From contig CP076040.1 in the NCBI GenBank assembly GCA_014529675.2, positions 1,674,001 through 1,738,000 of the forward strand: a stretch of DNA of 64,000 bases, written 5' to 3'. Positions 40,572 to 61,725 of the stretch are shown piece after piece (positions within the stretch are counted from its first letter, which is position 1; every line of letters starts with the position of its first letter). The notes under the pieces are model-generated. The model did not search any database. It was not told the origin of the DNA and saw only the letters and a program-made list of their open reading frames with translations. The stretch is from Opitutia bacterium ISCC 52 (lineage in GTDB: Bacteria; Verrucomicrobiota; Verrucomicrobiia; Opitutales; UBA2995). Position numbers and translations under genes: made by a program.

Positions 40572-40737
40572 CTAGGGAGTGTGTGTGAATTCTGGAACGA
40601 GAGGATGAGATGAGATATGGAGTTCAAAATATAGTCCAAAAACGAGGTGAATCGAGATTCATCGAGTTTGCAGCCCTGAATTTTGAGGACAAAGCTCGCT
40701 CAGCCTCGACATGAGTGAATTTACAAACACTCCCTAG
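40572..40737. mobile_element. 166-bp MITE-like element with 21-bp terminal inverted repeats
   Basis: The left end 40572-40592 (CTAGGGAGTGTGTGTGAATTC) and the inverted right end 40717-40737 (CTAGGGAGTGTTTGTAAATTC) match at 19 of 21 positions. The 124 bases between have no frame. No clear target duplication was seen. The right end overlaps the last codon and TAG stop (40734-40736) of the lyase gene. Non-autonomous transposon-like element is the best label. Confidence 0.65.
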
Positions 40738-41714: not shown

Positions 41715-41814
41715 ATGTTGCTATTTCTTTTGATATTGTTTCGAGTTGCGGCGGCTTGATCGTGTCGGATGACGGATCTAACGCCTTTGTGTTATTAAAA
41801 TTCCTTCAGTCATT

Positions 41815-43110: not shown

Positions 43111-43123
43111 GATCCCTCCCCTT

Positions 43124-44305: not shown

Positions 44306-44332
44306 GTGTGTAGAGAAGTTCTTAAACGTGCC

Positions 44333-44360
44333 GGTACTGGCAAACGGATTTGCCGGTACC
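44333..44360. promoter_or_regulatory. 28-bp near-perfect palindrome between sialidase and AraC genes
   Basis: GGTACTGGCAAA (44333-44344), CGGA, TTTGCCGGTACC (44349-44360): 11 of 12 positions pair. It lies 28 bases before the sialidase ATG and 122 bases before the AraC ATG, where an operator for the divergent pair is expected. AraC proteins often use direct repeats rather than palindromes, so another repressor, or an RNA hairpin in the leader, is possible. Confidence 0.6.
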
Positions 44361-44482
44361 AATTGGGCGTGAGGCATTTTAGTAATGAGTATTTGCTTCA
44401 CTTCCAATTAGTTTTTGTATTATAAGGGATAAAGATCCCCATTTGAATACAATTTAGAGGCATAAAAATACGGAAAATACGC

Positions 44483-45885: not shown

Positions 45886-47457
45886 TCACTCGGTCCGTGG
45901 CTTGTCCGGTTGAGCCGGTTCGACATAGGGCAATCTGGCCTTTCCTTTGACGAAAGTCGTGTTTGCGCCGCTGCGCACATACTGGTCCTTGGCGTTTGAG
46001 GAAGGCTGAAAGACCCATGGATTCGGGGTGGTCTTTGACAGTATGCGATGAATGAACCACTGACGTTTTTGCGATGCCAAGGCGTCTCGCCGATACTGAT
46101 CCGGGTTCCAGACCCGCAGCAATTCCTCGTGCATACCGGACAACACCTCGGCATAGGTTTCGTTACCGGCGAGATTGTTTAACTCGCTGGGATCGGCTTC
46201 CAGGTCGAACAGCAGCGCCGGATCCGTTTCACAATAAACGTATTTAAACTTTCCTTTCCTTACCATCAGGCAGGGAGCATAGGTCCCCTCAGCTGAATAT
46301 TCAGCAAACACTGGATGTTCCCAAGGATTACTCTCCGTCGACAACAGGGGCAGCAGGCTATGACCTAAAATCGGCTCAACGTAGTCGACCGGCTCATCCT
46401 CGATTCCCAGTTCAACAAAAGTAGGCAGCAGGTCGAGCAAGGAAACGGTCTTCGAAACGCGGCGCCCCTTCAACGGCGATTTTCCCGGCATTCGCACGAT
46501 CAAGGGTACGCGAACCGAACCTTCCAGCAATGACTGTTTGTACCAGAGTCCCCGCTCGCCCAGCATTTCGCCGTGATCTGAGGTGAAAACGACCACCGTC
46601 TCTTCCTTCAGGCCTGAGTCCTCGAGTGCAGTCATAAGCTCCCCGAGCTTGTCGTCGATGTAGCTTAACATGCCGTAGTAAGCACGTCGGGCATTGCGCA
46701 CATTGTCTTCGGTGACAGTGTATTCGTCGATGTGGAACATGTGATGCAGACGCCGTGAATGCGCATCCATTTCCTCCAGGGAAAGTGGGGGTACATCAGG
46801 CATGTCGATCTCATCCTCCTCGTAACGATCCCAGTGTTCGCGACTGGCAACGAATGGACTGTGTGGCTGCGAAAACGAGACCGTCAGGAAGAAGGGTTGA
46901 GGCTCTGGTTGGCGCGCAAGATCGTAGATTTTCTGTACCGCTTGGTGGGCTACTTCCTCGTCGTAATCAAGCTGCAAGCTTCTCGCGCAGGGACCGGCCT
47001 CGATTACCGTACGCGGACTGATCCCGGTTGGCGCCCAGGGGATTTCCGGGGTGCCGGCCCGCCAGTCGGGCCCCCATCCGAAATCAGAGGGATAAATATC
47101 TGTAGTTAGCCGCTCTTCGTATCCATGAAGCTGATCCGGTCCGAGAAAATGCATCTTTCCCGACAACGCGGTATGGTAACCGAGGTGGCGGAGGTAGTGC
47201 ATCATTGTCGGCGCCGAGGCCGGCATTTCGCATTGGTGATCGAATACGCCCATTTCCGAAGCCATCCTTCCGGTCAACATCGAGAATCGCGAAGGCGCGC
47301 AAATGGGATTGGTGCAATAAACCGTATCAAAAACCACCCCTTCATCGGCTATATTATCAAGGTGGGGCATTTTTACGACCGGGTGACCATAGGCCGGCAG
47401 GAAAGCCGGATTCACCTGGTCTGCCATGATGAGAAGAATATTGGGTTGCTTGGACAT
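45886..47457 (-). CDS. Cytoplasmic choline-sulfatase-like enzyme (S1_12 type)
   Basis: 523 residues and no signal peptide, unlike the other intact sulfatases. Formylglycine motif C53-A-P-S-R (choline sulfatase has it at nearly the same place), then SGKMHFLGPDQLHGYEERLT, DIYPSDFGWGPDW, and SDHGEMLGERGLWYKQSLLEG, all diagnostic of the BetC branch. The tail WFIHRILSKTTPNPWVFQP also matches that branch. It would desulfate a small imported sulfate ester; choline-O-sulfate is the known substrate of the branch, but no choline dehydrogenase is nearby. Its tail was duplicated into the remnant at 36682. Last gene of the long minus-strand cluster. Confidence 0.85.
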   Translation of the reverse strand: MSKQPNILLIMADQVNPAFLPAYGHPVVKMPHLDNIADEGVVFDTVYCTNPICAPSRFSMLTGRMASEMGVFDHQCEMPASAPTMMHYLRHLGYHTALSGKMHFLGPDQLHGYEERLTTDIYPSDFGWGPDWRAGTPEIPWAPTGISPRTVIEAGPCARSLQLDYDEEVAHQAVQKIYDLARQPEPQPFFLTVSFSQPHSPFVASREHWDRYEEDEIDMPDVPPLSLEEMDAHSRRLHHMFHIDEYTVTEDNVRNARRAYYGMLSYIDDKLGELMTALEDSGLKEETVVVFTSDHGEMLGERGLWYKQSLLEGSVRVPLIVRMPGKSPLKGRRVSKTVSLLDLLPTFVELGIEDEPVDYVEPILGHSLLPLLSTESNPWEHPVFAEYSAEGTYAPCLMVRKGKFKYVYCETDPALLFDLEADPSELNNLAGNETYAEVLSGMHEELLRVWNPDQYRRDALASQKRQWFIHRILSKTTPNPWVFQPSSNAKDQYVRSGANTTFVKGKARLPYVEPAQPDKPRTE

Positions 47458-47509
47458 TCTGTATTTAGCTTTCAGCCATTGCGGTTAGTTCTTAATGAAC
47501 GGGTATCAA

Positions 47510-48664
47510 TCAGCAACATCCAAGGATATCCCAAAGCTCGGGGCGGCGCAGCTTTACGAGGGCTTCCATGAAATAATGGTCGCCGTACATTATCGATTCA
47601 TCCACACCGGAACGGCGTGGGTAATCCACGGTTCCGTGCATCAGTAAACCCGGTTTATCCGGATGATCAAAATAAATGCAGGTATCGATCAAACCATGGA
47701 CCATTCGCTCACCAGCCTGGGTGTACCTCTGCTCTCCAGTTCGGCGGCCCAGTTCGATCAGTCCACTGGCCGCAATCGCGCCTGCAGCAGAGTCCACCGG
47801 CTCATTGGCATCCTTCCGGTCGAAATCCCAGGGCGGGATGGTTCTCTCACCCATTTGGTTGAGGAAGTAATCTGCTGTCTTTCGTGCCGTCACCATCAAT
47901 TCATCCGACTCCAGAATGGCTCCCATACGGGTAAATCCGTAGAGGGTCCAAGCCTGTCCGCGGGTCCAGCAGGATTCGTCATGCGCGCCCTGATGGGTAC
48001 CTCTGTGTGTGACCTCACCCGTGTCCGGATCATGATCGACCACATGATAAGTCGCACCGTCCGGGCGGATGTGCTGCTTGCGGATGGTCTCGGCCGTCTG
48101 CACGGCGATTTCGTGCAAGTGGTTGTCGCCGGACTCTTTTGCCGCCCAGCAGACGATCGGCAGATTCATGATCGTATCGACAATCGCCAGCGCCAGGTAC
48201 TCCTGTCCTTCGGACGGATCCCAGGCTGGAATGTACGCGCCTGTCGGAACGAAACGAGAGGCCAGGGACTGGCCGGCGGTAATCGCCAGCGATCGCAACT
48301 GTTCGTCGGCCTTGATATTGTGGCCACGTACGCAACTAGGCTCGAACAGGAAACCCATATCGTGAGTCGAGCAGTCCGTAGCCCGTGGAGCTAGGCGCAG
48401 AGCCCAGGACCGTGCTGTCTTTAGGATGGCCGGATCCTCTCGCAGCGCTCCCGCAAGCCAGAGCATTCCCACAAAGAATCCACCCGTCCAGCGCGCGTGT
48501 TCACTGAGCAACCAATCACCGTCTTTCGTCACATGTGGAAAGGTGGGTAAGCGGTCTGCATCGCGCAGGCATTTGGCTATTCCCAGGTCAAGAGCTCTAT
48601 CAAGAATACTGCTGTTTTCTGCTGTAGGATTCGTCTTCATGCCTTTTTCCGCTTCATGATTCAT
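47510..48664 (-). CDS. GH88 unsaturated uronyl hydrolase
   Basis: 384 residues, (alpha/alpha)6 barrel. Asp102 in STHDMGF and Asp163 in IVDTIMNLP have the 61-residue spacing of the two catalytic acids of unsaturated glucuronyl hydrolases; DESCWTRGQAWTLYGFTRM is the family signature near the active site. It hydrates and opens the unsaturated uronate left by polysaccharide lyases. No leader, so cytoplasmic. A polysaccharide lyase is not in the window. It shows that the cluster handles a uronate-containing, probably sulfated glycan. Confidence 0.9.
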   Translation of the reverse strand: MNHEAEKGMKTNPTAENSSILDRALDLGIAKCLRDADRLPTFPHVTKDGDWLLSEHARWTGGFFVGMLWLAGALREDPAILKTARSWALRLAPRATDCSTHDMGFLFEPSCVRGHNIKADEQLRSLAITAGQSLASRFVPTGAYIPAWDPSEGQEYLALAIVDTIMNLPIVCWAAKESGDNHLHEIAVQTAETIRKQHIRPDGATYHVVDHDPDTGEVTHRGTHQGAHDESCWTRGQAWTLYGFTRMGAILESDELMVTARKTADYFLNQMGERTIPPWDFDRKDANEPVDSAAGAIAASGLIELGRRTGEQRYTQAGERMVHGLIDTCIYFDHPDKPGLLMHGTVDYPRRSGVDESIMYGDHYFMEALVKLRRPELWDILGCC

Positions 48665-48688
48665 TCTGTTTTCGTAATTGAATAGTCC

Positions 48689-49888
48689 TCACTCCTCGGG
48701 GTCCTCATATAATACACCCTTGGAAAAGTACTCCTCTATTTGATCCTCCGCGAAGCCCAGATCGTTAAGTATATCCCTGCCGTCCTGTCCACAACGGAGA
48801 GCAATGTGCCTGAGCTCTGGGACCTTTTCATCGTAACGCAAAGGGTGGTTGATCAAGGTGGCCTTTGATTGTTTAATAGGCACTTCCCGCAGCACTTGGT
48901 TTGCCGCGACTTGAGGATCGGTGCGCAGGTCACTGTAATCTTGTACCCGTGCATACCAGATGCCTTTTTGGTCAAATTTTTCGGCCATCTCCGACAGGGG
49001 CAATTCCTTTAACGATTTTGCCAGCTCATGGGCAAAGGCATCCCGTTCCTCGAGCAGATCTTTTTCCGAAAGTTCCCTTAGCAATTCGTTATTGAGGATT
49101 TCTGCCAATGAACCGGCGGTGTTATTCATCGAAATAGCCACAAAGCAGTCGGCCATTTGATAGATGCCGTAGGGCGCCGGATGATACCAGGTTGCCAAGT
49201 GGGAATCTCGCTTGAACACTTCGCTCGTCAGATCCGGTCGACTCAAGAACGAGGTAAGCGGCTCGGTCTGCAAGTCCAGGGCTGCATTTAAAAGATTTCC
49301 CTCGATATGCGTGCCCTCACCGGTTTGAAGCTGTTTAGCATAAGCCGCCGCAATTCCCATCGCTATGAGGGTTGAACCATGCTGATCGATAAGGGCGTTG
49401 CCTGCCGGGACCGGGCGCGCTCCGTAGTCGCCCATGGCGGCGATCATTCCACTACGCGCCTGAGCCAGCATGTCCTGCCCGGGTGCGTCCTTCATCGGCC
49501 CGGATGAACCATAGCCAGTAGCCGAAACGTAAATGATATCGGGACGGATCTTGCGCACTTCCTCCAAACCGTAGCCGAGCCGATCTAAAACCCCAGGGCG
49601 AAAGTTTTCCACCAGGACATGCGACTGCTTGATGATGCGGTGAATGACTTCCTTGGAATCCGGATGCTTCAGGTTCATGGCAATGCTGCGCTTATTCCGG
49701 TTGGCGGAAAGGAAGAAGCTGCTTACGCCATCGACAAAGGAATCGCCCCCCGACCACTTGCGCTCGAGCGGTCCGCCTGGAGGTTCAATCTTGATAACGT
49801 CTGCCCCCATATCCGCCAGATACTGTGTTGCCGCCGGTCCATGTAAGTAGTGGCAGAAACTGATAACCTTCATCCCATCAAGTAGCAT
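48689..49888 (-). CDS. Family III CoA-transferase (CaiB/BaiF)
   Basis: 399 residues from ATG 49888, which has a good Shine-Dalgarno (AGAAAGGA) and leaves 19 bp after the hydratase gene; a start at 49993 would overlap it by 86 bases. Family III marks: MKVISFCHYLHGPAATQYLADMGADVIKIE, NRNKRSIAMNLKHP, VENFRPGVLDRLGYG, and the catalytic Asp in PGQDMLAQARSGM. It moves CoA between carboxylic acids. With the adjacent hydratase it forms a CaiB/CaiD-like pair. The acid it activates is unknown. Confidence 0.88.
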   Translation of the reverse strand: MLLDGMKVISFCHYLHGPAATQYLADMGADVIKIEPPGGPLERKWSGGDSFVDGVSSFFLSANRNKRSIAMNLKHPDSKEVIHRIIKQSHVLVENFRPGVLDRLGYGLEEVRKIRPDIIYVSATGYGSSGPMKDAPGQDMLAQARSGMIAAMGDYGARPVPAGNALIDQHGSTLIAMGIAAAYAKQLQTGEGTHIEGNLLNAALDLQTEPLTSFLSRPDLTSEVFKRDSHLATWYHPAPYGIYQMADCFVAISMNNTAGSLAEILNNELLRELSEKDLLEERDAFAHELAKSLKELPLSEMAEKFDQKGIWYARVQDYSDLRTDPQVAANQVLREVPIKQSKATLINHPLRYDEKVPELRHIALRCGQDGRDILNDLGFAEDQIEEYFSKGVLYEDPEE

Positions 49889-49907
49889 CTTTTCGTCCTT
49901 TCTGTAT

Positions 49908-50723
49908 TTAACGGTGTTTGTAATTCGGAGCTCTTTTATTGAAAAAAGCGTCGACGCCTTCTCTGGCATCTTCGGTCGCGAAAACTTCATCACTCATAGC
50001 CAGGCTTGCCTCCAGCACTTCATCCCGGGACTTGCCCTCAAAATCTCGTATTCCCTTTTTCATGATCTGTACGGACTTTGCCGGTCTGTTTGCCAATTCG
50101 GTCGCGAACTCAACCGCCGTATCGAAGACTTTTTCTTTCGGCACCAGCCTATTGAGAAGTCCCCAGCTCAGCGCCTGTTCTGCAGGTATAAAATCGCCAA
50201 GGAGAAGCATTTCCTTGGCGCGAGATTCACCGATCAGACGCGGAAGCCGTATAAGACCGGCGCCGGGGTATACCCCTAACTTAATTTCAGGCAGGCCAAT
50301 CTTCATATCCATTTCGCCAATCCTGAAGTCACAGCATAAAGCCAGTTCAAATCCTCCGCCGAGAGCAACTCCCTGCATTGCGGCGACAGTCGGTTGAGGC
50401 AAGTCGTCGAGGCGATTAAAGACTTCGTTTTCATAGCGAAGCTTTCTCTCAATAACCGTTCCGGTCTCGATATATTCAGGAAATTCTTTTATGTCCGATC
50501 CAGCTCCAAACGCACCGCCTAATGCACCGGTTACAACCAAGCTTCGAATCGAGGGATCATCCTTGATTTCACGCAATGCCTGATCGAACATCTCGGTCAT
50601 TTCGCGGTTAAATAAATTCAATGGAGGACGGTTCAGGGTCAGGATAGCCACCCCGTCTTGTCTCCTCTCCAGCGTTACCATTTGCGGTGGGCCGGTGTCG
50701 TGTTCAGTAGTGTCTTTTGTCAT
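49908..50723 (-). CDS. Enoyl-CoA hydratase/isomerase (crotonase family)
   Basis: 271 residues from ATG 50723 (a start at 50759 only lengthens a disordered N-terminus). Crotonase motifs: AILTLNRPPLNLFNREM, GAFGAGSDIKEF (oxyanion hole), and AAMQGVALGGGFELALCCDFRI with a Glu-rich region LPEIKLGVYPGAG. It acts on an acyl-CoA made by the CoA-transferase downstream. Dehydration, hydration or isomerisation cannot be told apart by eye. Cytoplasmic. Confidence 0.88.
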   Translation of the reverse strand: MTKDTTEHDTGPPQMVTLERRQDGVAILTLNRPPLNLFNREMTEMFDQALREIKDDPSIRSLVVTGALGGAFGAGSDIKEFPEYIETGTVIERKLRYENEVFNRLDDLPQPTVAAMQGVALGGGFELALCCDFRIGEMDMKIGLPEIKLGVYPGAGLIRLPRLIGESRAKEMLLLGDFIPAEQALSWGLLNRLVPKEKVFDTAVEFATELANRPAKSVQIMKKGIRDFEGKSRDEVLEASLAMSDEVFATEDAREGVDAFFNKRAPNYKHR

Positions 50724-50793
50724 TGGCAGAATATTGCTGTAACGAATGGGTGGATACAAAATTAGTTCGGTGTTTATCCGCTCCGGTAGTTGT

Positions 50794-52098
50794 TCAAGGG
50801 ATGGACGCGGGAAAGAAATAACCAGGTTCGGGGTCGAAGGATCTCAGGGAGGATCTATTAAGGGAATAGAGCTCCGACAGAGGAATTTGGACTGCTTCCA
50901 TATTTTCCTTGTTTACTGAATAGATTACCCACAGGGAATCGCCGACCACAACCGAATGTGGATACTGGTACCCAGCCCCCTTGAATTTCCCCTTGTGCCT
51001 TAGCGGCGGCGCTATGAACTTGATGACGGCCATTCGATCGAAATTGAGACCGTCCCGAGACAACGAGATGGCAAGCATGGAGCGACCGCCCTGGCGTGGC
51101 GTCATGGGCAGGATGTTGTTGATCGCGTAGACCTGGCCATCCGGCAGCTTCCCGGCATTGGTTCGGGCAACGGAATCCGGGAAATTGGTCCTTGTAGGGA
51201 TTGTCCATTTTTTGCCCCCATCAAAGGAAAAGGAAACGTAATTACAACGAGGCCGCGATGCATCCACCTCGGCGCGGGATTGAGCGTGGATGCTGCCGCC
51301 GTCACGATAGAACCGCGCCCAAGTGCCGTCGGCGAGCTGCCAAGGCGGACTCGGTTCATTCATGCGGTGGTCATCATCTGAATCCGGGTATTGTCTGGGG
51401 CCGAAGAGGAGCTGTGGCAAGTTGGCCGGCTCCTTGAAATAGGCCTTGAACTTTTCAACAAGAGAAGGATCTCCCACTGGACGAGCAGGATAGCCGGGCT
51501 CTGCTTTAGGAGCTTTATCAGACAACCAGAATATATCGCCGAGCGATCCATTCGTTCGCACCTCTCGAGCTAGGAATCCGATCCGGACCCGCGATACCTC
51601 ATTGAAACGATAAACCTTTTCTTCCAACTCCCTGTCAGCGCAGGTGACGGCGTAGAGTCGATTGTCGATCACGGCGAATCCTTGCGAGGTTTGAAAGGGT
51701 TTGGGGCTTTCCGTCTCGGAAGCGGGCACGTTGTCGGCAAGCGGCGGAAACAAGACCTTCGGTTCGGACCATGTTTCTCCGTCGTCTAGCGAAAACCGGA
51801 GAATGCTGTGCTGGCCCGAAGTATTTTCGTCGCGGGCCTGACTGTCCCAGCAGCCGAAGAGAACTCCTTCGAAATAAGCGAGGAATCCGTGGTGGCTGAA
51901 CGTTCCATTCTCCGGGGTTCCACGCCAAAGCTTTGTGGTTCTCACGTTTTCTAGAAAGTGATATCGATGATCCGGCGCATCTCCAGCCGTCCATTCGACC
52001 ACTGGCATACTAACCGGTTGGGCAACCGCCTCTGTCAGACTCACGGTCACCGGGAGTATCAGCGAGAAAGCAAGAGAAAATTTGTCGATGACATTCAT
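50794..52098 (-). CDS. Secreted BNR/sialidase-like protein, paralogue of 56095
   Basis: 434 residues from ATG 52098 (MNVIDKFSLAFSLILPVTVS opens the signal peptide). It shares most of its length with the protein at 56095: RYHFLE, GQH, FPPLAD, PKPFQTSQGFA, KVYRFNEVSR, YFKEPANLPQLLF, PTRTNFPD, LPDGQ, RQGGR and DRMAVIKF. Asp-box-like turns: SLDDGETW, SFDGGKKW and SRDGLNF. Classical sialidase Arg residues are not evident, so it is a separate BNR family whose function is unknown. Confidence 0.75.
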   Translation of the reverse strand: MNVIDKFSLAFSLILPVTVSLTEAVAQPVSMPVVEWTAGDAPDHRYHFLENVRTTKLWRGTPENGTFSHHGFLAYFEGVLFGCWDSQARDENTSGQHSILRFSLDDGETWSEPKVLFPPLADNVPASETESPKPFQTSQGFAVIDNRLYAVTCADRELEEKVYRFNEVSRVRIGFLAREVRTNGSLGDIFWLSDKAPKAEPGYPARPVGDPSLVEKFKAYFKEPANLPQLLFGPRQYPDSDDDHRMNEPSPPWQLADGTWARFYRDGGSIHAQSRAEVDASRPRCNYVSFSFDGGKKWTIPTRTNFPDSVARTNAGKLPDGQVYAINNILPMTPRQGGRSMLAISLSRDGLNFDRMAVIKFIAPPLRHKGKFKGAGYQYPHSVVVGDSLWVIYSVNKENMEAVQIPLSELYSLNRSSLRSFDPEPGYFFPASIP

Positions 52099-52174
52099 GA
52101 GGAGCGCTATTGGCGGGCAATGCATGACAGGAAGGTTTTGTCACCTGCCTGGACGATTTTTGCCGATGGAAGCA

Positions 52175-53611
52175 TTAGTATTGGTTTTTGAATACGAGTG
52201 TTTTTAGCTGGCTCATCTCCTCGAGTGTGAATCGTCCGCCCTCACGTCCGATGCCGCTCATTTTGTACCCGCCGAAGGGTTGGTCGGCAGAGCGGTAAAG
52301 GCCGCTTCCATTGAATACGCAGCATCCCGTCTGCAGGGCTCGAGCAATTTGCATGGCCTTCCCCTGATCGCGTGTCATCACGCCGCCGGAGAGCCCGTAG
52401 ATGGAGTTGTTCGCTATTTCAATGGCTTCTTCAATGGTGTCGAAGCCGATAATGGGCCAAACCGGTCCGAATATTTCCATATCCCGGGCGATATCCATAT
52501 CGGGAGTAACATCCGTCAGCAGAGTCGGCTCAATAAAGGTACGGTTGAAACGTTTGCCGCCAAACAGCAGGCGTGCTCCTTGTTCGACTGAATGTTGAAT
52601 TTGCCGCTCAATATCGATCGCCGCTTTTTCGGAAGTAACGGGTCCGAAGGTCGTATTTTCGTCATTCGGATCTCCGACTTGGATGGCCTTGATTTTCTCC
52701 AGAAGCTGGTTGGTAAATTCCTCCCGGATCGAGTTCTGCACCATAAAGCGTTTGCTTGCGCAGCATATCTGGCCTGCATGCACGTGCCGCCCACAGAAAG
52801 ATTCGTGGATGGCCAGATCCATTTCGGCGTCCTCCAGGATGATCAATGCATCATTTCCTCCCAGCTCCAATGACACCCGGTGTAAATGCTCAGCACAATC
52901 CTTGGCAATTTGAATGCCGACTTCCGTGCTGCCGGTTAAACTGACCACATCGATATCTTTACTCGCCACAATGTATTTGCCGACTTTGGAGCCACTGCCA
53001 GTGAGGATTTGCACAGCGTTCGGTTCAACGCCGCTTTTCAACAGCAGTTCCGTCATCACGATATTACAAAGCGGGGTATCGGAGGCCGGTTTTACTATCA
53101 CGGCATTGCCCATCAGCAGTGCAGGGATTGCTTTCTGAACATAGAGCGAAATGGGGCTGTTGAACGGGAGTAGACAGAAGACGACTCCCCAGGGTTCTCT
53201 AACAGTTAGGACCAGATCGTTCTCTGCGATGGGATGGTTTCCTGGCGCGAATGTTTCGCCGCCCAGCGAGCGGGCGGCTTCGCAAAAGTTCCTGATTAGG
53301 AGCGTGGCCACGTTGATTTCTCCAGCGGCCAGGGTTTCGGTTTTTCCCATTTCCTCCATGCCCAGTTTGATGAGGTCTTCTCTGGCTTCCTTAAAGAGCT
53401 CTTCGAAGGCGTACAGGGTTTCTATTCTTTTATGCAGGGGTACTTGTGCCCATGTTTTGAAGCCTTTCCGCGCGTTCAACAAAGCGTGGTCTATGTCCTC
53501 CGTCGTTGCCATGGGTACGGTATCGACCACCGTATGCGTGGCGGGATTAATTACCTCTTGAACCGCGCCATCGCTCGCTTCGACATTTTGTCCCCCAATA
53601 ATCATCTTCAT
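52175..53611 (-). CDS. NAD(P)-dependent aldehyde dehydrogenase
   Basis: 478 residues with a strong Shine-Dalgarno (AGGAGG) before ATG 53611. Catalytic residues: Asn151 in PFNSP, Glu249 in LELGGND, and Cys283 in GQICCASKR (a second Cys follows directly). The C-terminus QPFGGYKMSGIGREGG is standard. It oxidises an aldehyde to the acid; in this cluster the product could be the acid passed to the CoA-transferase, or it could be lactaldehyde or a semialdehyde from the HpaI aldolase. Lies 24 bp after the aldolase gene. Confidence 0.9.
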   Translation of the reverse strand: MKMIIGGQNVEASDGAVQEVINPATHTVVDTVPMATTEDIDHALLNARKGFKTWAQVPLHKRIETLYAFEELFKEAREDLIKLGMEEMGKTETLAAGEINVATLLIRNFCEAARSLGGETFAPGNHPIAENDLVLTVREPWGVVFCLLPFNSPISLYVQKAIPALLMGNAVIVKPASDTPLCNIVMTELLLKSGVEPNAVQILTGSGSKVGKYIVASKDIDVVSLTGSTEVGIQIAKDCAEHLHRVSLELGGNDALIILEDAEMDLAIHESFCGRHVHAGQICCASKRFMVQNSIREEFTNQLLEKIKAIQVGDPNDENTTFGPVTSEKAAIDIERQIQHSVEQGARLLFGGKRFNRTFIEPTLLTDVTPDMDIARDMEIFGPVWPIIGFDTIEEAIEIANNSIYGLSGGVMTRDQGKAMQIARALQTGCCVFNGSGLYRSADQPFGGYKMSGIGREGGRFTLEEMSQLKTLVFKNQY

Positions 53612-53635
53612 AGTCTGATTCCTCCTATTATAGGT

Positions 53636-54397
53636 TCATGTTGCTTCATCGAATTTCCGGAAATCCTCCTTCAACCCGTTCGACCAACTTTTAAATTCTG
53701 CGCTGGCAACCAGCAGTTGCGCTCCCTGCTGAGCACGCCGTTTTAAATCCTCCGGCAATAGCGTGGGGCCTCCGAAAGCGACTCCGTGCTTCTGGCAGGA
53801 GGCAGCCACGGTTTCCCACGCCTGCTCAAGCGTCATCTCGCCGCTCTGCCGTAACCGCAACCCGAGGTCTGCGGGTCCCACGAAGATCATGTCCACTCCT
53901 TCGACCGCGGCAATGGATTCAACATTGCGAACGGCAAGCGGCGTCTCGATCTGTACGCAAAGAAATGTTTCTCGATTTGCCCAGGCCGCAAATTCATCCG
54001 GATCGTGATATTGGAAGTCAGCGTCCAAACCGCTGTTGTCAATTCCCCGCTCACCCAAGGGGGGAAACTTGACGGCATCAACGAGCTCCTTCGCCATTTC
54101 GGCGGTGGACACTTGTGGAACGAGCAATCCGGCGGCGCCTTCCTCAAGGTATCGATACAAGCCAATCTTTTCCAGCGTCGGGGGCCGGAGCATGATATCG
54201 ATATCATAAAGATGCGAGTAGGCCAGGAGCGCCTGGACCTCGCGAGGTGAGAAAAGCCTGTGTTCCAGATCGAGCCAGATACAATCGTAACCCGCTCGAG
54301 CTGCGTTGCAGACGAATGCGGGTATATAATGTCCAAGCACGCATGTGCGGATGATTTCACCCTTGCGCATGCGGGCGAGAGTTTTGCTTCTTCTCAT
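53636..54397 (-). CDS. HpcH/HpaI-family aldolase
   Basis: 253 residues from ATG 54397; the longer frame from 54454 has an implausible hydrophobic extension. Class II metal-dependent barrel: YDCIWLDLEHRLFS, ERGIDNSG, Glu in VQIETPLAVRN, Asp in FVGPADLGLRL. The family cleaves 2-keto-3-deoxy sugar acids to pyruvate and an aldehyde. Next to an aldehyde dehydrogenase this gives a cleavage-oxidation pair. The substrate is not readable. Confidence 0.87.
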   Translation of the reverse strand: MRRSKTLARMRKGEIIRTCVLGHYIPAFVCNAARAGYDCIWLDLEHRLFSPREVQALLAYSHLYDIDIMLRPPTLEKIGLYRYLEEGAAGLLVPQVSTAEMAKELVDAVKFPPLGERGIDNSGLDADFQYHDPDEFAAWANRETFLCVQIETPLAVRNVESIAAVEGVDMIFVGPADLGLRLRQSGEMTLEQAWETVAASCQKHGVAFGGPTLLPEDLKRRAQQGAQLLVASAEFKSWSNGLKEDFRKFDEAT

Positions 54398-54466
54398 GAT
54401 AATTTTTTCTGCGTAATGTGTTGATGTATGAAAGAGGATGAATACCAGGACCACTCCAAGATTCCG

Positions 54467-55963
54467 TTAGCTTTTTTTAGTCCAGGAAAACAATTTGCAG
54501 GCTACAAGGCCGACCAACAGGCCCACAATCAGTCCGGTTGGAAGTATTAATTGAAAGCTGATTGGATCCATACCTGTAATCGGATCAGGCCCAAACAGGA
54601 CTCCGGAGAACGCCGCAATTGCCGCGGCCGCGACACTGGCCAAGGTTGCGATCCAAACCCCAGGCGCGTTAGCGAAGGGCACAAAGAGTGCAAAAATAAA
54701 TAACAGTGCGATGGGTCCTGTTAGCAGATTGGTCGTCTTGTTCGTGACTGCGAGGAAGTTGCCAGGGACATACTTCACAAGTGTGCTGATTAAGACAACG
54801 ATGACACCGATTCCGATGGCCAGGCTGCGCGCCACGTGCAGATGCTGTTTCTCCGACTGTGGTTTCCGTCCAAACCGGTCGAGGAAGTCGGTCATTACGA
54901 CAGCCGTGATCGAATTCACGCCTGAGTCGATGCTGGACATGGCCGCTGCAAAGAGGCCCGAGACCACCAAGCCCGTTACCACCGGTGGCAGTTGGGCCGC
55001 TATGAAGTGCGGAAATAGCTGATCAGCTTGAGATTTTACGGAGCCATCTGCCGGTAATAAATCTGGACTTACTTGGAAGAATCCAAGCAGTGCCAAACCA
55101 ACAACGCCCAATGTCGATCCAACAACAAAGGCGGTGGTCAATTGCATGGCGATGGCTTTACGCGCGGCTCTGACATCCTTTGTCGACATGTACCGCTGGA
55201 CGGAGACCTGATCACCCATGGAAGTGCATACTAGAAACAGGAAAATCCACAGCATGGAGCCTGCGACCGTGACTCTTGTTGACGGATCTAAACTGAACAA
55301 TGGTTGCTTGTCCCACACATCCGATTGCCATTCAGTTGGAAACCAGGCGAAGCCACCCATCTTCCAGGTAACTGTGCCGATAACGATTAATGCCCCGCCG
55401 TACAAAAGAAGGGATTGCATCAGGTCGGTTATGACGACGGCACGTAGCCCGCCGACAGAGGTATAGGTAATGGCAAAGATCGCGGTTACTATAACGATCC
55501 AGGGAATCATTTCATCGCCCGCGCCGATCATAATGGCAATGGCCTTGGCGGTCATGTAAATCAGCAAGGACATCCAGACTAATCTTAACGTGAGAAACAT
55601 CGCCGCGCCCAGCATGCGAACACTCAGTCCAAGGCGTTGTTCCAGTAACTCGTAGGCACTTGTGACACGATTCTTCATGTAGACCGGAAGAATCACAAAT
55701 GCCAGGGTGAGGAATATGAACGGATAGGAAAGGTAGACGGCCATATAGGCAGGACCCTTACCCAGGACTTCTCCTGGTATCGCCAGATAACTGATCGTAC
55801 TCAGAAGCGTGGCGAACAAAGAGACGCCAACCAGGATCGGATTCATGCTACCTGATCCAATGAAATACTCTTTTGTGTCTTTCTGCTTTCTACCAAAATA
55901 CCAGCCAACTACGATCGTCGAAGTCGCGTAGATAAATACAATAATCCAGTCGACAGGCGTCAT
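54467..55963 (-). CDS. Sodium/solute symporter (SSS family)
   Basis: 498 residues, ~13 membrane segments. TKEYFIGSGSMNPILVGVSLFATLLST and VVSGLFAAAMSSIDSGVNSI are the SSS hallmarks; ITYTSVGGLRAVVITDLMQS is also typical. Close to the carrier at 39033 over its whole length. It imports a product of the surrounding hydrolases, probably the one fed to the aldolase and dehydrogenase encoded just downstream. Confidence 0.9.
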   Translation of the reverse strand: MTPVDWIIVFIYATSTIVVGWYFGRKQKDTKEYFIGSGSMNPILVGVSLFATLLSTISYLAIPGEVLGKGPAYMAVYLSYPFIFLTLAFVILPVYMKNRVTSAYELLEQRLGLSVRMLGAAMFLTLRLVWMSLLIYMTAKAIAIMIGAGDEMIPWIVIVTAIFAITYTSVGGLRAVVITDLMQSLLLYGGALIVIGTVTWKMGGFAWFPTEWQSDVWDKQPLFSLDPSTRVTVAGSMLWIFLFLVCTSMGDQVSVQRYMSTKDVRAARKAIAMQLTTAFVVGSTLGVVGLALLGFFQVSPDLLPADGSVKSQADQLFPHFIAAQLPPVVTGLVVSGLFAAAMSSIDSGVNSITAVVMTDFLDRFGRKPQSEKQHLHVARSLAIGIGVIVVLISTLVKYVPGNFLAVTNKTTNLLTGPIALLFIFALFVPFANAPGVWIATLASVAAAAIAAFSGVLFGPDPITGMDPISFQLILPTGLIVGLLVGLVACKLFSWTKKS

Positions 55964-56094
55964 GACTGATCCAGGGTTATGCCGTCCAAGTACACTGGAG
56001 GGAGTTCTTTCGTCTTTAACACCTCAGCAGCTGATCTCATGTCTATTCCTTAGTCGCATACTCAAGAGCTGGATATAGGGTGATGGTAATCATG

Positions 56095-57369
56095 CTAATG
56101 GGAGACGGGCCTTTGCGATGCGCTATCGATGGCATAAAGTTCTGCCAATGGGATGCGAGTCACTTCGACGTCTTCCTTATTAACCGAGTAGATGACCCAG
56201 AGGTGTTTTCCGACCACTTCGGAATGCGGATACTGGAAACCTCCAGCCCCTTTTGATTTGCCTTCGTATCGCTGGCTAGGTGTACCAAACTTGATGACCG
56301 CCATGCGATCGAAGATGAGTCCATCCTTGGATAGGGAGATGGCCAGCATCTGCCTACCGCCCTGTCTTGCGGACATGAGCAGCGGATTGTTGATCACATA
56401 GAATTGACCGTCCGGCAGTTGCCCTGAATTGGCCCGTGCCCCTGTATCCGGAAAATTGGTACGTGTGGGCGCGCTCCATGTTTTCCCGTCATCAAAGGAG
56501 AACGAGGCATAGTGGCGACGGGGCCTTGAGGCCTCGATCTCGGCGCGAGTGGTTGCGTGAACTGTCCCCTGATTTCGATAAAGTCTTACCCAGGTCCTGT
56601 TGTCAAGGCGCCAAGGTTGGGTAGGCTCAGTCATGCGGTGTTCGTCATCGGAATCAGGCCACTGTCTTGGTCTAAAGAGTAACTGGGGTAAGTTGGCTGG
56701 TTCCTTGAAATAGGCGTTGAGCTTGGCAACCAGTGAAGGGTTGCCGGCGGGTATGGATGGATAGCCAGTTTCCGGCTTTGGGGATTCGTCGGACAGCCAG
56801 AAGACCGGCCCTACTGTTCCGTCCACACGCACCTCGCAAGCGAGTAAGCCGATCCGGGTGCGTGAGACTTCGTTGAAGCGATACACTTTTTCTCTCAAAG
56901 CCCGGTCGACACAGGTCACCGCATACAATTTACCATCTACTTCGGCAAAGCCCTGGGAAGTCTGAAATGGCTTGGGTATCTTGGCTACCGAGGCCGGGAC
57001 ATAGTCGGCGAGTGGAGGAAATAATCGCTTTTGTTTCGACCAGGTTTTTCCTTCATCGGTTGAGTAACGAAAGACACCATGCTGCCCGGCCGTATTTTCA
57101 TCTCGCGCCTGGTTATCCCAGGAAGCAAAGAGCACGCCTTTATAATAGCGAAGGAAACCGTGAAGGTTAAAGGTTCCTGTTTCCGGAGTCGCGTACAACA
57201 AGTTGGTGGTCTTGGTTTTCTCCAAAAAGTGGTAGCGAAATTCGGGTTCGTCCTGGATCGCCCACCTCACAACAGGTTGTTCGGTAGCCGTAAGGGTTAA
57301 GCTCGCAATAGTAAGTGCAAGAACGGAGCAGATCAGGAGGCTGAATCGTAGCGGGTATCGTTTGATCAT
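56095..57369 (-). CDS. Secreted BNR/sialidase-like protein, paralogue of 50794
   Basis: 424 residues with a signal peptide (MIKRYPLRFSLLICSVLALTI to about ATE). Nearly colinear with the protein at 50794: RYHFLEKTKTTNLLYATPE, GQHGVFRYSTDEGKTWS, KPFQTSQGFAEVDG, YRFNEVSRTRIGLLA and FPDTGARANSGQLPDGQ. It keeps the Asp-box turns STDEGKTW and SFDDGKTW. No known catalytic set. The pair flank the transporter, aldolase and dehydrogenase genes, so they probably came from a tandem duplication in the cluster. Confidence 0.75.
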   Translation of the reverse strand: MIKRYPLRFSLLICSVLALTIASLTLTATEQPVVRWAIQDEPEFRYHFLEKTKTTNLLYATPETGTFNLHGFLRYYKGVLFASWDNQARDENTAGQHGVFRYSTDEGKTWSKQKRLFPPLADYVPASVAKIPKPFQTSQGFAEVDGKLYAVTCVDRALREKVYRFNEVSRTRIGLLACEVRVDGTVGPVFWLSDESPKPETGYPSIPAGNPSLVAKLNAYFKEPANLPQLLFRPRQWPDSDDEHRMTEPTQPWRLDNRTWVRLYRNQGTVHATTRAEIEASRPRRHYASFSFDDGKTWSAPTRTNFPDTGARANSGQLPDGQFYVINNPLLMSARQGGRQMLAISLSKDGLIFDRMAVIKFGTPSQRYEGKSKGAGGFQYPHSEVVGKHLWVIYSVNKEDVEVTRIPLAELYAIDSASQRPVSH

Positions 57370-57408
57370 CGAGTTCGGTGATTAATTCTTTGGGTAAAGT
57401 TGAAGGTA

Positions 57409-58875
57409 TTAGTGTGATTCGAAAAAGTACTCAGGATACCGCCATTTCCAATCGGCACTCTTTTTGGGATTTCCATCTCCAATGGCAGTGATGATTTCAT
57501 CGATGTACTGTTGCAACACGTCGGGATGTCGTAAGGGGTCATTTGTCTTATCCTGCCAGGCGAAAAGCTGTTTCTTGAGTCGCTCGAGGATGACTTGATG
57601 GTCTCTATCGCCTGACAAGTTCTTGAATTCGTAGGGATCGTTCTCCAGGTCGTATAACTCGAATTCGGGAGCGTGTTTCATCGATCGATATCCGGCAGCA
57701 ATGGCAGGATTGGACTCGATGATGCTTGTACTTACTTTTGGAAAGTGACGTTCCATAACGAAATCGAATTCGGGATTTTCCAAGTGGGGCGCCAGGTTGT
57801 GAATCAGCTTGTATCGCTCACCCCGAACCGACCGTTGCGGGAAGAAGTTGAATAGTCCGTGCAAATGCCACTCGGCAAACAAGTAGGGGCGCCATTCCGG
57901 CTTCTTACCTTTTAGCAGAGGAAGCAGTGAACGTCCTGGCAGAGAGTTTGGCGCATCCACTCTAGACGCTTCGAGGATGGTCGGTAACAAATCGATCGTG
58001 GAGACGAGCTCTCGTCTTCCTTGACCCGCTTTGCTTATGCCGGGCCACGAAGCAATCAGCGGAATGCGCAGGCCACTTTCCAGGCAGGTTCGCTTGCCTC
58101 GAAGCAAGTCGGCTCCGTGATCGCCGAGATAGATGACGAGCGTATTGTCTGATTTGCCGCTCCTCTTCAACTTCTGCAGGAGATCTCCAATCAGCGTATC
58201 CAAACGATTCATACAGTTGTAGTGGTCGGCTGTTTGCTGCCGCAGGTCGGGATGATCGACTCCCATGTAGGCGAGCGGTTTTACGTCCGCTCCCGTGAGC
58301 GGTTTTTCTGGGAGGTTCTCCACTTGCGGGATAAAAGGCCGGTGGGCATCCGGATAATTGACCATGAGGAAGAAAGGATCCTCGGAAGCCTTCATAAATT
58401 CGCCTGCCAAACTCGCGTATCGACCGAGTTTCTTGCGACCGAAGTTGGCAGTTGGTATTTCTTTGAAGTCGAACGGAAAAGCGGAGGCGGGATTGATGTG
58501 AAGCTTTCCGATGATCCCGGTGCGATATCCCGCATCCTTAAGACTGCGGACGACGTTCGGCGTATCTTTTTGATACATCCGAAAGTCCCAGGTCGCCAAA
58601 CCGATCTGGCCATTCTGGTGGGGATAAAGTCCGGTAAGAATCGAAGAACGGGATTGGCTGCAACCGGCTTGGGTTACAAAGGCTCGATCGAAACGCACGC
58701 CGGTCTCCGCCAGCTTATCCAGATTCGGTGTCTGCACATAAGGTTCCCCATAACAACTCAGTTCGGGGCCATTGTCCTCGGAAGTGATCAGCAGAATGTT
58801 GGGCCGGATGTTTTCACCACAGGCTAGAACCGCGGCCAGAATGAGTCCGCTTAATGAATAATGGATAACCTTCAT
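57409..58875 (-). CDS. Secreted sulfatase with unusual CSQSR motif, possible lipoprotein
   Basis: 488 residues. The leader MKVIHYSLSGLILAAVLAC ends with Cys19 in a lipobox-like VLAC. ILLITSEDNGPELSCYG starts the fold. The activation motif is C72-S-Q-S-R, with Gln where Pro is standard, then GKLHIN in place of GKWHLG, and YLGDHGADLLRGKRT. The HGAD/GKRT region resembles heparan N-sulfatase (sulfamidase)-like enzymes. Whether a maturase still converts Cys72 is the open point. Paralogue of 60175. Confidence 0.85.
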   Translation of the reverse strand: MKVIHYSLSGLILAAVLACGENIRPNILLITSEDNGPELSCYGEPYVQTPNLDKLAETGVRFDRAFVTQAGCSQSRSSILTGLYPHQNGQIGLATWDFRMYQKDTPNVVRSLKDAGYRTGIIGKLHINPASAFPFDFKEIPTANFGRKKLGRYASLAGEFMKASEDPFFLMVNYPDAHRPFIPQVENLPEKPLTGADVKPLAYMGVDHPDLRQQTADHYNCMNRLDTLIGDLLQKLKRSGKSDNTLVIYLGDHGADLLRGKRTCLESGLRIPLIASWPGISKAGQGRRELVSTIDLLPTILEASRVDAPNSLPGRSLLPLLKGKKPEWRPYLFAEWHLHGLFNFFPQRSVRGERYKLIHNLAPHLENPEFDFVMERHFPKVSTSIIESNPAIAAGYRSMKHAPEFELYDLENDPYEFKNLSGDRDHQVILERLKKQLFAWQDKTNDPLRHPDVLQQYIDEIITAIGDGNPKKSADWKWRYPEYFFESH

Positions 58876-59040
58876 GTCGATAAATAGTCTTGTTTCGATG
58901 TCATGGGGTAGTGTCTGGCGACAATTTGAATCGATCTACCAGCGTAATCATGCGTTTCCGAATCACAGATTCAAGGGCTTCACTGTGGTTCTATTAAGGA
59001 ACCAGAAGAAAAAGCTAATTCTCCCCCTATTCTTTAACCG

Positions 59041-60129
59041 TTAGGCTTCGCGATGCGAGATGCTGTCTCCTTCCACGAAATCGGGGATCAACAAAACGGA
59101 TTTCGGCTTTGTGGAGGTATTGTGGATCAGTCTCTTGATGTTGCGGTACAACTTTCCGGCAAACAGGATGGGGCTTTGCTCATAACGGGCAGGAGTGGGC
59201 CTAAGGTAGCGTTGAAAATACTCTGATCCCCGGCATATCAGGGAAACATCATTCGGAACACGCAAGCCCCTTTGGGTGAGCGCGCTGAATACCGTCAAAT
59301 ACTGGAATGCATTGTTAACCAGCATGGCGGTGGGCTTGGAGCGCTGTTTCATGAGCCGATTTACTATGTGTATTATGCGATTAACCGAGGAATCCAGATG
59401 CACAATGTTTCCTACTGCTGGATTATCTTCAAAATGTTCGTTAATGCCTTCGAGAAATCCAGTTTCACTTCGAATGTCTCCAGCCAGTAGCGGTGGAGGA
59501 GTTAGGTAAACAATGTTCCGATGTCCCAAGCGTCGCAAAGTCGCTACGGCATGGCGACAAAGCGCCTGATAATCAACGTCTACATAAGGCAAATCTATTC
59601 CCTGATGACAGGAACCAGCGATCAGGCAGGGTATGTTGTTTAAACAGAACCAATTTTGGACGGCTTTATTAGATGCCACCAGCATCCAACAATCGCACCT
59701 CTCCTGTTCAACTAATCGTTGAATAGCCTTTTCCGAACCCGTCTTGAAGTATTGGTTTCCATCGTAATATTTCAGAACATACTCGTCTTTTGCCAGCCGG
59801 TCGCGCAAAGCGTCAATATAGAGAATCTTTCTGGGATAAACGGTTTCGATTGGACTGGGAGAAAGGACTCCAACGACATGACTTTTCTTCGTGGTTAGCT
59901 TGGAGGAATTCCTGGTAATTCGAACGCCTTGTCTGTTAATGATTTTAATCATCCCTTCCATTTCCAGGATCTTAAGAGCTGCCCTCAGGCTGTTTCGACC
60001 TACCCCAAGGTCCTTGGACAGTCTTCGCTCGCCAGGAAGCCAATCGCTCCAATCGCCATCAAGAATACCATTCCTGATAACGGTTACCGTCTGATCAATT
60101 ACGGAAACTCTATCAACCGTCAAAGGCAT
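59041..60129 (-). CDS. GntR-type HTH / LacI-type sensor hybrid regulator
   Basis: 362 residues. Residues ~10-75 are a GntR winged helix (LPGERRLSKDLGVGRNSLRA, ILEMEGMIKIINRQGV). Residues ~85-355 are a periplasmic-binding-protein-like sensor of the LacI/GalR type (HVVGVLSPSP, LRRLGHRNIVYLTPP, GLRVPNDVSLICRGSEYFQR). This mix is typical of sugar-responsive regulators in Verrucomicrobiota and Lentisphaerota. It lies between two paralogous sulfatase genes inside the long minus-strand cluster, and is the obvious local regulator of it. Confidence 0.88.
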   Translation of the reverse strand: MPLTVDRVSVIDQTVTVIRNGILDGDWSDWLPGERRLSKDLGVGRNSLRAALKILEMEGMIKIINRQGVRITRNSSKLTTKKSHVVGVLSPSPIETVYPRKILYIDALRDRLAKDEYVLKYYDGNQYFKTGSEKAIQRLVEQERCDCWMLVASNKAVQNWFCLNNIPCLIAGSCHQGIDLPYVDVDYQALCRHAVATLRRLGHRNIVYLTPPPLLAGDIRSETGFLEGINEHFEDNPAVGNIVHLDSSVNRIIHIVNRLMKQRSKPTAMLVNNAFQYLTVFSALTQRGLRVPNDVSLICRGSEYFQRYLRPTPARYEQSPILFAGKLYRNIKRLIHNTSTKPKSVLLIPDFVEGDSISHREA

Positions 60130-60174
60130 GAGAAACGACGTTATGGAAGGATGTTTTGTGTAAATCCCAAAGAA

Positions 60175-61725
60175 TTAATCCTCTAAGCGATTTATTTTAT
60201 TAGTTAGGTTGGTGTGATCAAAGTAATCGGGATAGCTCCAAGGTTTTTCTCGGGATTGGCGTTTGCTGGAGATGGCACGGACTTCGGTGGTCAACCGTTT
60301 GAGGTTTCGGGGATCGAGAAGTGGGTCGTGCGTACGGTCTCGCCAGGCGAGGATTTGCTGTTGGAGCTCATTCAAAACCTCGGCGTGGGCGGGCTTGTCG
60401 GCGAGATTGTGAAACTCAAAGGGATCCAATTTCAGATCATAAAGCTCGAAGCGGGGCGGCTGTCGCATCAGAGCGTAGGCACGACGGACCTCCTCAGCGG
60501 CGGCCGCGATGACGGCTTGAGGATCAAAGGACTTGTGAGGGTCGTTGAACTTCGCCTCTCCGACCAGCTTGGTGAGCGTGAACTCGTAGTCAGGATGAAC
60601 CTCACCGGAGAGGAGATTCTCGATCAGCTTGAAGCGATCGTTACGGACGGTCCGCTGAGGGAAGAAGCTGGTCGCGCTGTGAGTGTGATACTCGGTGAAC
60701 AGGTAGGTGCGCCAGGCGGGAGTGCCAGGCTGGAAAAGGGGCTGAAGGGGACGACCCGGCAGGTTAGGGACCGGCATCGCCCCGGCTGCTTCCAAAAGGG
60801 TAGGCATCAAGTCGATGGTAGAGACTAGGTCATCCCGTTGTTGGGGCGAGATTCGTCCCGGCCAGCGAAGGAGCAAAGGAATGCGGACGCCTCCTTCATA
60901 GCTGGTGCGCTTGCCTCGAAGCATATCTGCGCCGTGGTCCCCAAGGTAGATGACGATGGTATCGCCGGCCTTGCCGGAGCGCTCAAGAACGGCAAGGAGA
61001 TCGCCGATCAAGGTGTCCATTCGGCTGAGGCAATTGTAATAGTCGGCGATCATTTCCCGCATGGCCGGGTCGTCCAATCCCATGTAAGTCATGGGTTTGA
61101 CCTCGTCACCGGTTTGCGGATCTGCCGGCAAACCGTCGACCTGGCGAATCCAGGGGTCGTGCGGGTCGGGGTAATTGACGCTGAGGAAGAAGGGCGCATC
61201 CCCTCCGTTTATAAAGGTCTCCGCGTGTTTTGCATAATCTCCGAGATTCTCCCGGGCGAAATTAGCGTTCGTGATGTGGTGGACATCAAAGGGAAAAGCG
61301 GAAGCTGGATTTATGTGGAGCTTGCCGATGAGCCCCGTGCGATACCCTGCGGCCTGGAGGCTCTTGGGTAGATTCGGTGTGTCCTCGCGATAGAGTCGGA
61401 AGTTCCAAGTCGCCAATCCGATCTGGCCGTGCTGGTGAGGATAGAGACCGGTGAGGAAACTGGCGCGACTTTGGCTGCAACCAGCTTGGGCGACATAGGC
61501 GCGACGAAAGAGGAGTCCTTCAGTGGCCAAATGGTCCAGGTGAGGCGTTCGTGCATAGGGGTCGCCATAGCACCCGAGCTCGGGACCATTGTCCTCCGAG
61601 ACAATCAGCAGGATGTTGGGACGGTTGTCTTCAGCGCTTCCTTCGGTCGCAAGTAGGCAGCTGGCTAGTACACAGGCGCTGATGGCTGACAGGAGAAGAG
61701 AACGGGGAATAAGGTCTAACTTCAT
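60175..61725 (-). CDS. Secreted sulfatase with unusual CSQSR motif (paralogue)
   Basis: 516 residues, signal peptide to about EGSAED. ILLIVSEDNGPELGCYG, activation motif C83-S-Q-S-R (again Gln for Pro), GKLHIN, NYPDPHDPW, YLGDHGADMLRGKRT. It shares with 57409 the stretch QAGCSQSRxSxLTGLYPHQ and the GLATW that follows. The C-terminal segment is about 30 residues longer. Sulfamidase-like activity is suggested by the HGAD/GKRT block but not proven. It is 9 bp after the sulfatase-sialidase fusion gene. Confidence 0.85.
   Translation of the reverse strand: MKLDLIPRSLLLSAISACVLASCLLATEGSAEDNRPNILLIVSEDNGPELGCYGDPYARTPHLDHLATEGLLFRRAYVAQAGCSQSRASFLTGLYPHQHGQIGLATWNFRLYREDTPNLPKSLQAAGYRTGLIGKLHINPASAFPFDVHHITNANFARENLGDYAKHAETFINGGDAPFFLSVNYPDPHDPWIRQVDGLPADPQTGDEVKPMTYMGLDDPAMREMIADYYNCLSRMDTLIGDLLAVLERSGKAGDTIVIYLGDHGADMLRGKRTSYEGGVRIPLLLRWPGRISPQQRDDLVSTIDLMPTLLEAAGAMPVPNLPGRPLQPLFQPGTPAWRTYLFTEYHTHSATSFFPQRTVRNDRFKLIENLLSGEVHPDYEFTLTKLVGEAKFNDPHKSFDPQAVIAAAAEEVRRAYALMRQPPRFELYDLKLDPFEFHNLADKPAHAEVLNELQQQILAWRDRTHDPLLDPRNLKRLTTEVRAISSKRQSREKPWSYPDYFDHTNLTNKINRLED

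Follow-up and report, generated by a model that had tools for sequence, protein, structure and literature searches.

What business do a coenzyme A (CoA)-transferase and an enoyl-CoA hydratase have among genes for the use of a sulfated glycan? The question is raised by a run of minus-strand genes in Opitutia bacterium ISCC 52 (genome G000, one contig of 4.8 Mb, C1), within a stretch of 64,000 nucleotides at positions 1674001-1738000 of that contig, which we call the window. An earlier note on this DNA had described sulfatases, a GH88 hydrolase and BNR proteins mixed there with an SSS carrier, an HpaI-type aldolase, an aldehyde dehydrogenase, a CoA-transferase and a hydratase. Pfam searches bear this out, and the gene order is kept in another genus of the same family. 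The note had also regarded the CoA pair as unusual for a glycan cluster, and so it is: the sulfatase/glycan locus is real and conserved, and the transferase/hydratase pair forms an integral part of it, in conserved order. The substrate and chemistry that we suggest for it are putative. Tentatively, and giving it rather less than an even chance, we prefer to see a single locus for glycan use, in which the CoA genes would finish the degradation of an acidic keto-sugar released from the glycan, by a pathway through 3-deoxy-lyxo-2-heptulosaric acid (Dha).

The run with the CoA genes is referred to here as cluster B, and a neighbouring set of genes (37192..44407) as cluster A. Read along the minus strand from 63987 to 45886, cluster B consists of the following genes:

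61735..63987, minus: sulfatase-BNR fusion, part within the window (PF00884, BNR_2/BNR_3); the full open reading frame (ORF) has 916 aa and begins beyond the window
60175..61725, minus: sulf1, SGSH_C-type sulfatase, CSQSR site
59041..60129, minus: regulator with GntR helix-turn-helix and Peripla_BP_3 domains (Pfam); copy in relative G007 87% identical
57409..58875, minus: sulf2, SGSH_C-type sulfatase, CSQSR site; G007 69%
56095..57369, minus: BNR1, GH143-like sialidase-fold hydrolase (PF13088, PF24067 below threshold); 63% identical to BNR2, with which it shares a profile match to BT_1020
54467..55963, minus: SSS, Na+/solute symporter (Pfam); G007 94.6%
53636..54454, probable start ATG 54397, minus: HpaI, class II pyruvate aldolase of HpaI type; active-site D-x-EH, LRP, QIE, GPADL
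52175..53611, minus: ALDH, aldehyde dehydrogenase; catalytic Cys (GQICC) and Glu (ELGG)
50794..52125, minus: BNR2, GH143-like sialidase-fold hydrolase (PF24067 above cut-off); YSVNKE motif in common with BT_1020
49908..50723, ORF reaching TTG 50759, minus: ECH, enoyl-CoA hydratase; both crotonase glutamates (GGGFELA, GLPEI)
48689..49888, ORF reaching GTG 49993, minus: CoAT, class III (CaiB/Frc-type) CoA-transferase; GQD motif
47510..48664, minus: GH88, unsaturated-glucuronyl-hydrolase-like; HDMGF and DTIMN motifs
45886..47457, minus: cholS, choline-sulfatase-like sulfatase without the choline clamp; CAPSR site, TIGR03417

Pfam models recover every gene named earlier (sulfatases, two BNR_2, SSF, HpcH_HpaI, Aldedh, ECH_1, CoA_transf_3 and Glyco_hydro_88), and a motif check found the expected class-specific catalytic residues in each enzyme. 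The gene list of the earlier note thus stands, but the extent that it gave is too short and the GntR/Peripla_BP_3 regulator had gone unnamed. Three sulfatases lie within 45886-61725; beyond 61725 comes the fusion at 63987-61735, an N-terminal sulfatase part joined to a BNR sialidase-like domain (L048:735-3485), whose start lies past the window edge. The intergenic gaps measure 9-165 nt, mostly less than 55 nt, and 12-52 nt from SSS to cholS. No minus-strand terminator-like site was seen in the SSS-cholS gaps with a pattern scan that itself performs no better than on shuffled sequence. The probable start of CoAT is ATG 49888, preceded by AGAAAGGACG; with this start the apparent overlap of ECH and CoAT vanishes.

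Are the CoA genes truly part of the locus? The family comparison comprised eight genomes, from G000 to G007, the last being from the other genus. Several are fragmented metagenome-assembled genomes, so the absence of a gene is not absolute. In G007 the order is identical from sulf2 through BNR1, a broken BNR gene, SSS, HpaI, ALDH, BNR2, ECH, CoAT and GH88 to cholS, at 69-95% identity (ECH 75%). The CoA genes are part of the locus. The 33 kb contig of G007 stops inside cholS and also carries cluster A (BNR3, AGE, NAL, SSS2, sulfatase), which there too accompanies cluster B. CoAT has no copy in G001-G006; an orthologue of ALDH (91%) is present beside G000 solely in G007, the other family genomes offering 38% at most, and close full-length copies of BNR1/2 occur in G000 and G007 only. 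ALDH, CoAT and the close full-length BNR copies co-occur exclusively, in two of the eight. The note had staked its single-pathway idea on the presence of the pair in close relatives. In G007, where the locus is whole, the pair keeps its position, and the genomes without CoAT are also those without an orthologous ALDH and close BNR copies. When genome contigs were scanned with CoAT, the sole match was a contig evidently that of G007.

Other parts of the locus are distributed differently. SSS and HpaI are adjacent in G002, G004, G005 and G006 (SSS 65-66%, HpaI 53-59% identity), where the CoA genes are not present, and in three of these four relatives a BNR_2 sialidase-like gene adjoins them. In G004 they are followed by an AGE-type epimerase, a gene without a Pfam match that, from a reading of its sequence, we take to be probable NagA, and a glucosamine-6-phosphate isomerase-type gene. 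Since the SSS and HpaI pair is kept beside sialidase-like BNR genes, a keto-deoxy acid resembling sialic acid is a plausible substrate of HpaI. To judge from these comparisons, the locus reads as an ancestral core of hydrolase, importer and pyruvate aldolase, to which ALDH, ECH and CoAT would have been gained together with the GH143-like BNR genes.

Which acid might this be? BNR2 exceeds the cut-off of PF24067, which in Pfam represents the N-terminal propeller of BT_1020; BNR1 falls below it. A single-sequence phmmer search with BNR2 finds BT_1020 (5mqr) at E 3e-18, and a profile with 16 members matches residues 47-408 of BT_1020 at E 1e-51, the next sialidase following at 2e-8. The structure predicted for BNR2 from 16 sequences (pLDDT 70.0, pTM 0.74; it replaced a poor model from 4 sequences with pLDDT 52.6) compares with 5mqr at a VIA Z of 29.5 and 3.1 A over 324 residues with 28% identity, and with the next sialidase at Z 26.5. 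By homology, BNR1 and BNR2 are nearer to the BT_1020 propeller than to other sialidases. The tyrosine of the common YSVNKE motif is likely to be the nucleophile.

Ndeh et al. in 2017 are said to have assigned the N-terminal half of BT_1020 to GH143, as a Dha hydrolase. Dha also occurs in plant rhamnogalacturonan II. We take the 5mqr half of BT_1020 to be this Dha-releasing domain, an assumption to which the GH142 nature of the C-terminal barrel lends indirect support. That barrel is classified as GH142 (PMC7263609). Typical constituents of prasinophyte scales and the Tetraselmis theca include Dha and 5-O-methyl-Kdo (PMC10762512). The glycan in question is probably a sulfated, algal-type polysaccharide.

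Two further observations concern GH143-like genes. The third such gene of G007 (L010:3071-3943) is broken, its middle missing and in-frame stops present, which may be a sign of recombination between copies. In G004, G006 and G007, and elsewhere in G000 (L092, L095, L098, L099), distant GH143-like BNR genes adjoin aldolase genes of the DHDPS family, and these neighbourhoods may be other ulosonic-acid-type loci of the family.

The enzymes expected to deal with the released acid fall into clear classes. HpaI is a class II pyruvate aldolase (PF03328, 93.2 bits against a cut-off of 25; active-site Arg, His, Glu and Asp present) that lies far below the cut-offs of the HpaI, GarL and RhmA equivalog models, GarL-type ones being among its best matches. 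CoAT is a class III CoA-transferase (PF02515, 287.9 against 23.3 bits, with the GQD motif) and the sole one of its kind found in G000. No substrate-specific model gives it a score above cut-off, and it is roughly equally close to SUGCT, YfdE and formyl-CoA transferases (Frc). ECH is a crotonase-type enoyl-CoA hydratase by PF00378 and both catalytic glutamates, has 3-hydroxypropionyl-CoA dehydratase as its nearest PDB match, and is one of two crotonases (ECH_1) in G000. No acyl-CoA dehydrogenase (PF00441) was found in G000 and its sole strong thiolase is pcaF of a protocatechuate operon, so that a conventional beta-oxidation outlet is not visible and a self-contained CoA step is favoured. The search for a tartrate dehydratase brought up a single class I fumarase-type gene and no dedicated enzyme. 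Cluster B lacks a NanA-type lyase with the ManNAc route; their place is taken by HpaI and ALDH, and the genes for NAL and AGE sit in cluster A. Plasmid searches with HpaI, ALDH and SSS gave distant, mixed contexts only.

From gene content, order, conservation, the fold class of BNR2 and the catalytic residues, we infer a substrate, a series of reactions and a recycling of CoA. Secreted sulfatases would remove sulfate from the glycan, the GH143-like BNR1 and BNR2 would free a 2-keto-3-deoxy sugar acid, for which Dha is our best guess, and the SSS carrier would import it. HpaI would then split Dha into pyruvate and threuronate, an aldehyde acid of four carbons, which ALDH would oxidise to tartrate; the scheme draws on established chemistry. 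CoAT would place CoA on tartrate, and from the resulting tartryl-CoA, a 2,3-dihydroxyacyl-CoA, ECH would take off water to give the enol of oxaloacetyl-CoA. If CoAT next handed the CoA to another tartrate, oxaloacetate would be freed in a CaiB/CaiD-like cycle. Meanwhile GH88 would trim an unsaturated uronate, and cholS a sulfate, from the same glycan. Such a pathway would employ all four enzymes (HpaI, ALDH, CoAT and ECH) and end in central metabolites. A precedent for CoA-bound sugar acids is the deoxyribonyl-CoA route proposed for Klebsiella (PMC6365646), the only case that a literature search for them returned.

The Dha pathway is the best supported of several possibilities, and a number of points weigh against it. 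The co-occurrence of ALDH, CoAT and the BNR genes rests on two genomes. BNR1/2 are just 28% identical to the GH143 part of BT_1020, to our knowledge the one characterised member of GH143, and the path from these genes to Dha is one that we infer. We know of no crotonase that dehydrates a 2,3-dihydroxyacyl-CoA, and tartrate could be managed without CoA. The CoAT clade is mixed: the tree groups the window pair with the nearest outside relative, on an Aminobacter plasmid (52%), which lies with an acyl-CoA dehydrogenase and MaoC, and the substrate is not settled by it. Finally, GH88 stands beside CoAT in unrelated genomes, a hint that it may be the uronate side for which the CoA genes work.

This last hint leads to one of the alternatives, which we regard as unlikely. 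GH88 would release an unsaturated uronate, which would open to a 4-deoxy-5-keto sugar acid, ALDH would oxidise the aldehyde of this acid to 2-keto-3-deoxyglucarate, HpaI would act like GarL to give pyruvate and tartronate semialdehyde, and CoAT/ECH would work on a side acid. GH88 is weak in Pfam (PF07470, 32.2 against 26.6 bits), but comparison with the PDB clearly shows it to be UGL-like (6e-53), and the two catalytic Asp motifs are present; the GarL-type matches of HpaI and the adjacency of GH88 and CoAT in Bradyrhizobium and Halostagnicola point the same way. But no polysaccharide lyase, KduI/KduD or tartronate-semialdehyde reductase was recognised in the run, relatives carry HpaI and SSS without an adjacent GH88 or ALDH, and CoAT and ECH get no clear role.

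The same modest odds apply to the suggestion that CoAT and ECH process an organic acid taken off the glycan (3-hydroxyacyl, succinyl or similar), sharing an operon but not a pathway with HpaI and ALDH. The nearest PDB match of ECH would suit this, as would the equal likeness of CoAT to the dicarboxylate transferases SUGCT, YfdE and Frc and the acyl-CoA dehydrogenase/MaoC company of some CoAT relatives. Yet no esterase was recognised in the run, and the enoyl-CoA product would have no obvious exit in a genome in which neither an acyl-CoA dehydrogenase nor a general thiolase was found.

Somewhat less probable again, the CoA pair may be a passenger, co-transcribed with the glycan genes and functionally unrelated to them. 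It is present in just two of the eight family genomes and its nearest outside CoAT is in a non-glycan context. Against this, it holds the same place in two genera, between BNR2 and GH88 with small gaps, and CoAT-ECH pairs recur in sugar-type clusters.

The earlier note had itself hinted at a sulfated quaternary amine, such as choline-O-sulfate or a carnitine-type compound, and this we now hold to be very improbable. It is true that cholS, with 618 bits, clears the TIGR03417 cut-off of 433 and has the choline sulfatase 6fny as its best match. The determinants of choline sulfatases are a clamp, GW-X13-WYHN with Trp129 and His145, and a C-tail gate of Leu499 and Asp500 (PMC9063841). In the alignment with 6fny, cholS keeps Trp129 but reads GW...WAPTG (W143A, Y144P, H145T, N146G), and at the gate N-L-D has become N-T-T (L499T, D500T). 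CoAT reaches 83.7 of the 413 bits required by the NCBIfam carnitine CoA-transferase CaiB equivalog, and ALDH 379 of the 669 bits of the betaine-aldehyde dehydrogenase model TIGR01804. There is no choline dehydrogenase in the run, and the GH143-like BNRs and HpaI would be left unexplained. With clamp and gate replaced and the carnitine and betaine models below their cut-offs, these substrates were set aside; a sialic-acid-like 2-keto-3-deoxy sugar acid is likelier. Hardly more credible is a sulfated hydroxycinnamate (zosteric-acid-like), its coumarate turned by CoAT, ECH and ALDH into 4-hydroxybenzoate for the complete-looking pobA/pcaHGFBDC/IJ operon (28569-20479) 17 kb away, a route set aside on mismatched gene distribution, since pobA is found in G000, G001, G002 and G005 but not in G007, the holder of CoAT/ALDH, and since ECH has the hydratase glutamate pair and is not near hydroxycinnamoyl-CoA hydratase-lyases among the matches listed.

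Whether CoAT and ECH serve sugar acids elsewhere is another question. Relatives of CoAT (34-42% identity) have an ECH within about 3 kb in all ten Verrucomicrobiota loci read; in Glaciihabitans and Rhodococcus the pair is accompanied by LacI and a DHDPS-type aldolase. A sugar-acid role is plausible. More broadly, a CaiB-type transferase and a crotonase might replace metal-dependent dehydratases in CoA-dependent sugar-acid dehydration, here for Dha and also elsewhere among Verrucomicrobiota, actinobacteria and haloarchaea, a generalisation that we consider doubtful, if worth stating. Most of the ten Verrucomicrobiota loci have a LacI-type regulator, SDR and lactonase or solute-binding genes. 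Conserved operons among the Verrucomicrobiota (L011, L012, L013, L076-L079) comprise LacI, SDR, CoA-transferase, ECH and a solute-binding-like protein, apparently without a signal peptide, and some have a lactonase. Genome G597 has two class III CoA-transferase domains fused in tandem in one 644-aa ORF (L080:9879-11813), near ECH and ALDH.

Next to cluster B in the window lie:

44483..45286, plus: AraC-type regulator between clusters B and A; G007 84%
37192..44407, minus: cluster A, with BNR3, AGE-type epimerase, DHDPS/NAL-type aldolase (GSTGE), SSS2 and a sulfatase

By its gene content, cluster A is a candidate sialic-acid-type utilisation set. A short ORF at 36682-37089 is similar in its C-terminal part to the end of cholS (QWFIHR..SKTTPNPW..QYV.SGANTTFVKG) and is probably the remnant of a second choline-sulfatase-like gene. 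Five further sulfatase genes (2660, 12015, 13702, 15180, 17083) at 2660-18429 surround a DUF7133/cytochrome c protein, a PQQ-type propeller and a 3-keto-disaccharide-hydrolase-like gene. The 4-hydroxybenzoate/protocatechuate operon at 20479-28569 appears complete (pobA, pcaH, pcaG, pcaF, pcaB, pcaD, pcaC, fused pcaIJ, MarR); its pobA was not found in G003, G004 and G006 either.

If the Dha pathway is correct, the locus would supply a catabolic route for this acid, for which none was found described in the open-access literature searched. An HpaI-type enzyme would replace the lyases of sialic-acid type, and class III CoA-transferases and crotonases would be shown to work on sugar acids. Should another substrate prove to be the right one, the locus is conserved all the same, and four soluble enzymes would suffice to put the question directly to the test.

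How does the locus compare with known systems? Cluster B has the sialidase-fold hydrolase, SSS carrier and pyruvate aldolase of sialic-acid loci (sialidase, SSS/NanT, NanA, NanE, NagA/NagB), which cluster A also resembles with its BNR, AGE-type epimerase, NAL-type aldolase and SSS2; cluster B differs in having an HpaI-type aldolase, then ALDH, CoA-transferase and hydratase, and in its many sulfatases. The N-terminal domain of BT_1020 (GH143, Dha hydrolase of rhamnogalacturonan II) is the best match of BNR1/2 in sequence, profile and fold, whereas BNR1/2 are single-domain proteins without the GH142 half, 28% identical to it and in sulfatase-rich surroundings. Carnitine dehydration by CaiB/CaiD uses the same two enzyme classes from adjacent genes, and a recycling of CoA may be common to both; the carnitine-specific model is far from reached (84 against 413 bits), and the context here is glycan degradation. 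In the deoxyribonate catabolism of Klebsiella michiganensis (PMC6365646) a sugar acid is handled as a CoA thioester, as we propose here, and the cluster likewise includes a CoA-transferase, but the route uses a CoA-synthetase, dehydrogenase and thiolase, with no crotonase or aldolase. The CoAT-ECH operons of other Verrucomicrobiota, Glaciihabitans, Rhodococcus and Halobellus have no sulfatase or BNR hydrolase in the same operon, but their CoAT and ECH are likewise adjacent or near (33-41% identity), in the company of LacI/IclR regulators, SDR/Gfo oxidoreductases, lactonases and DHDPS-type aldolases.

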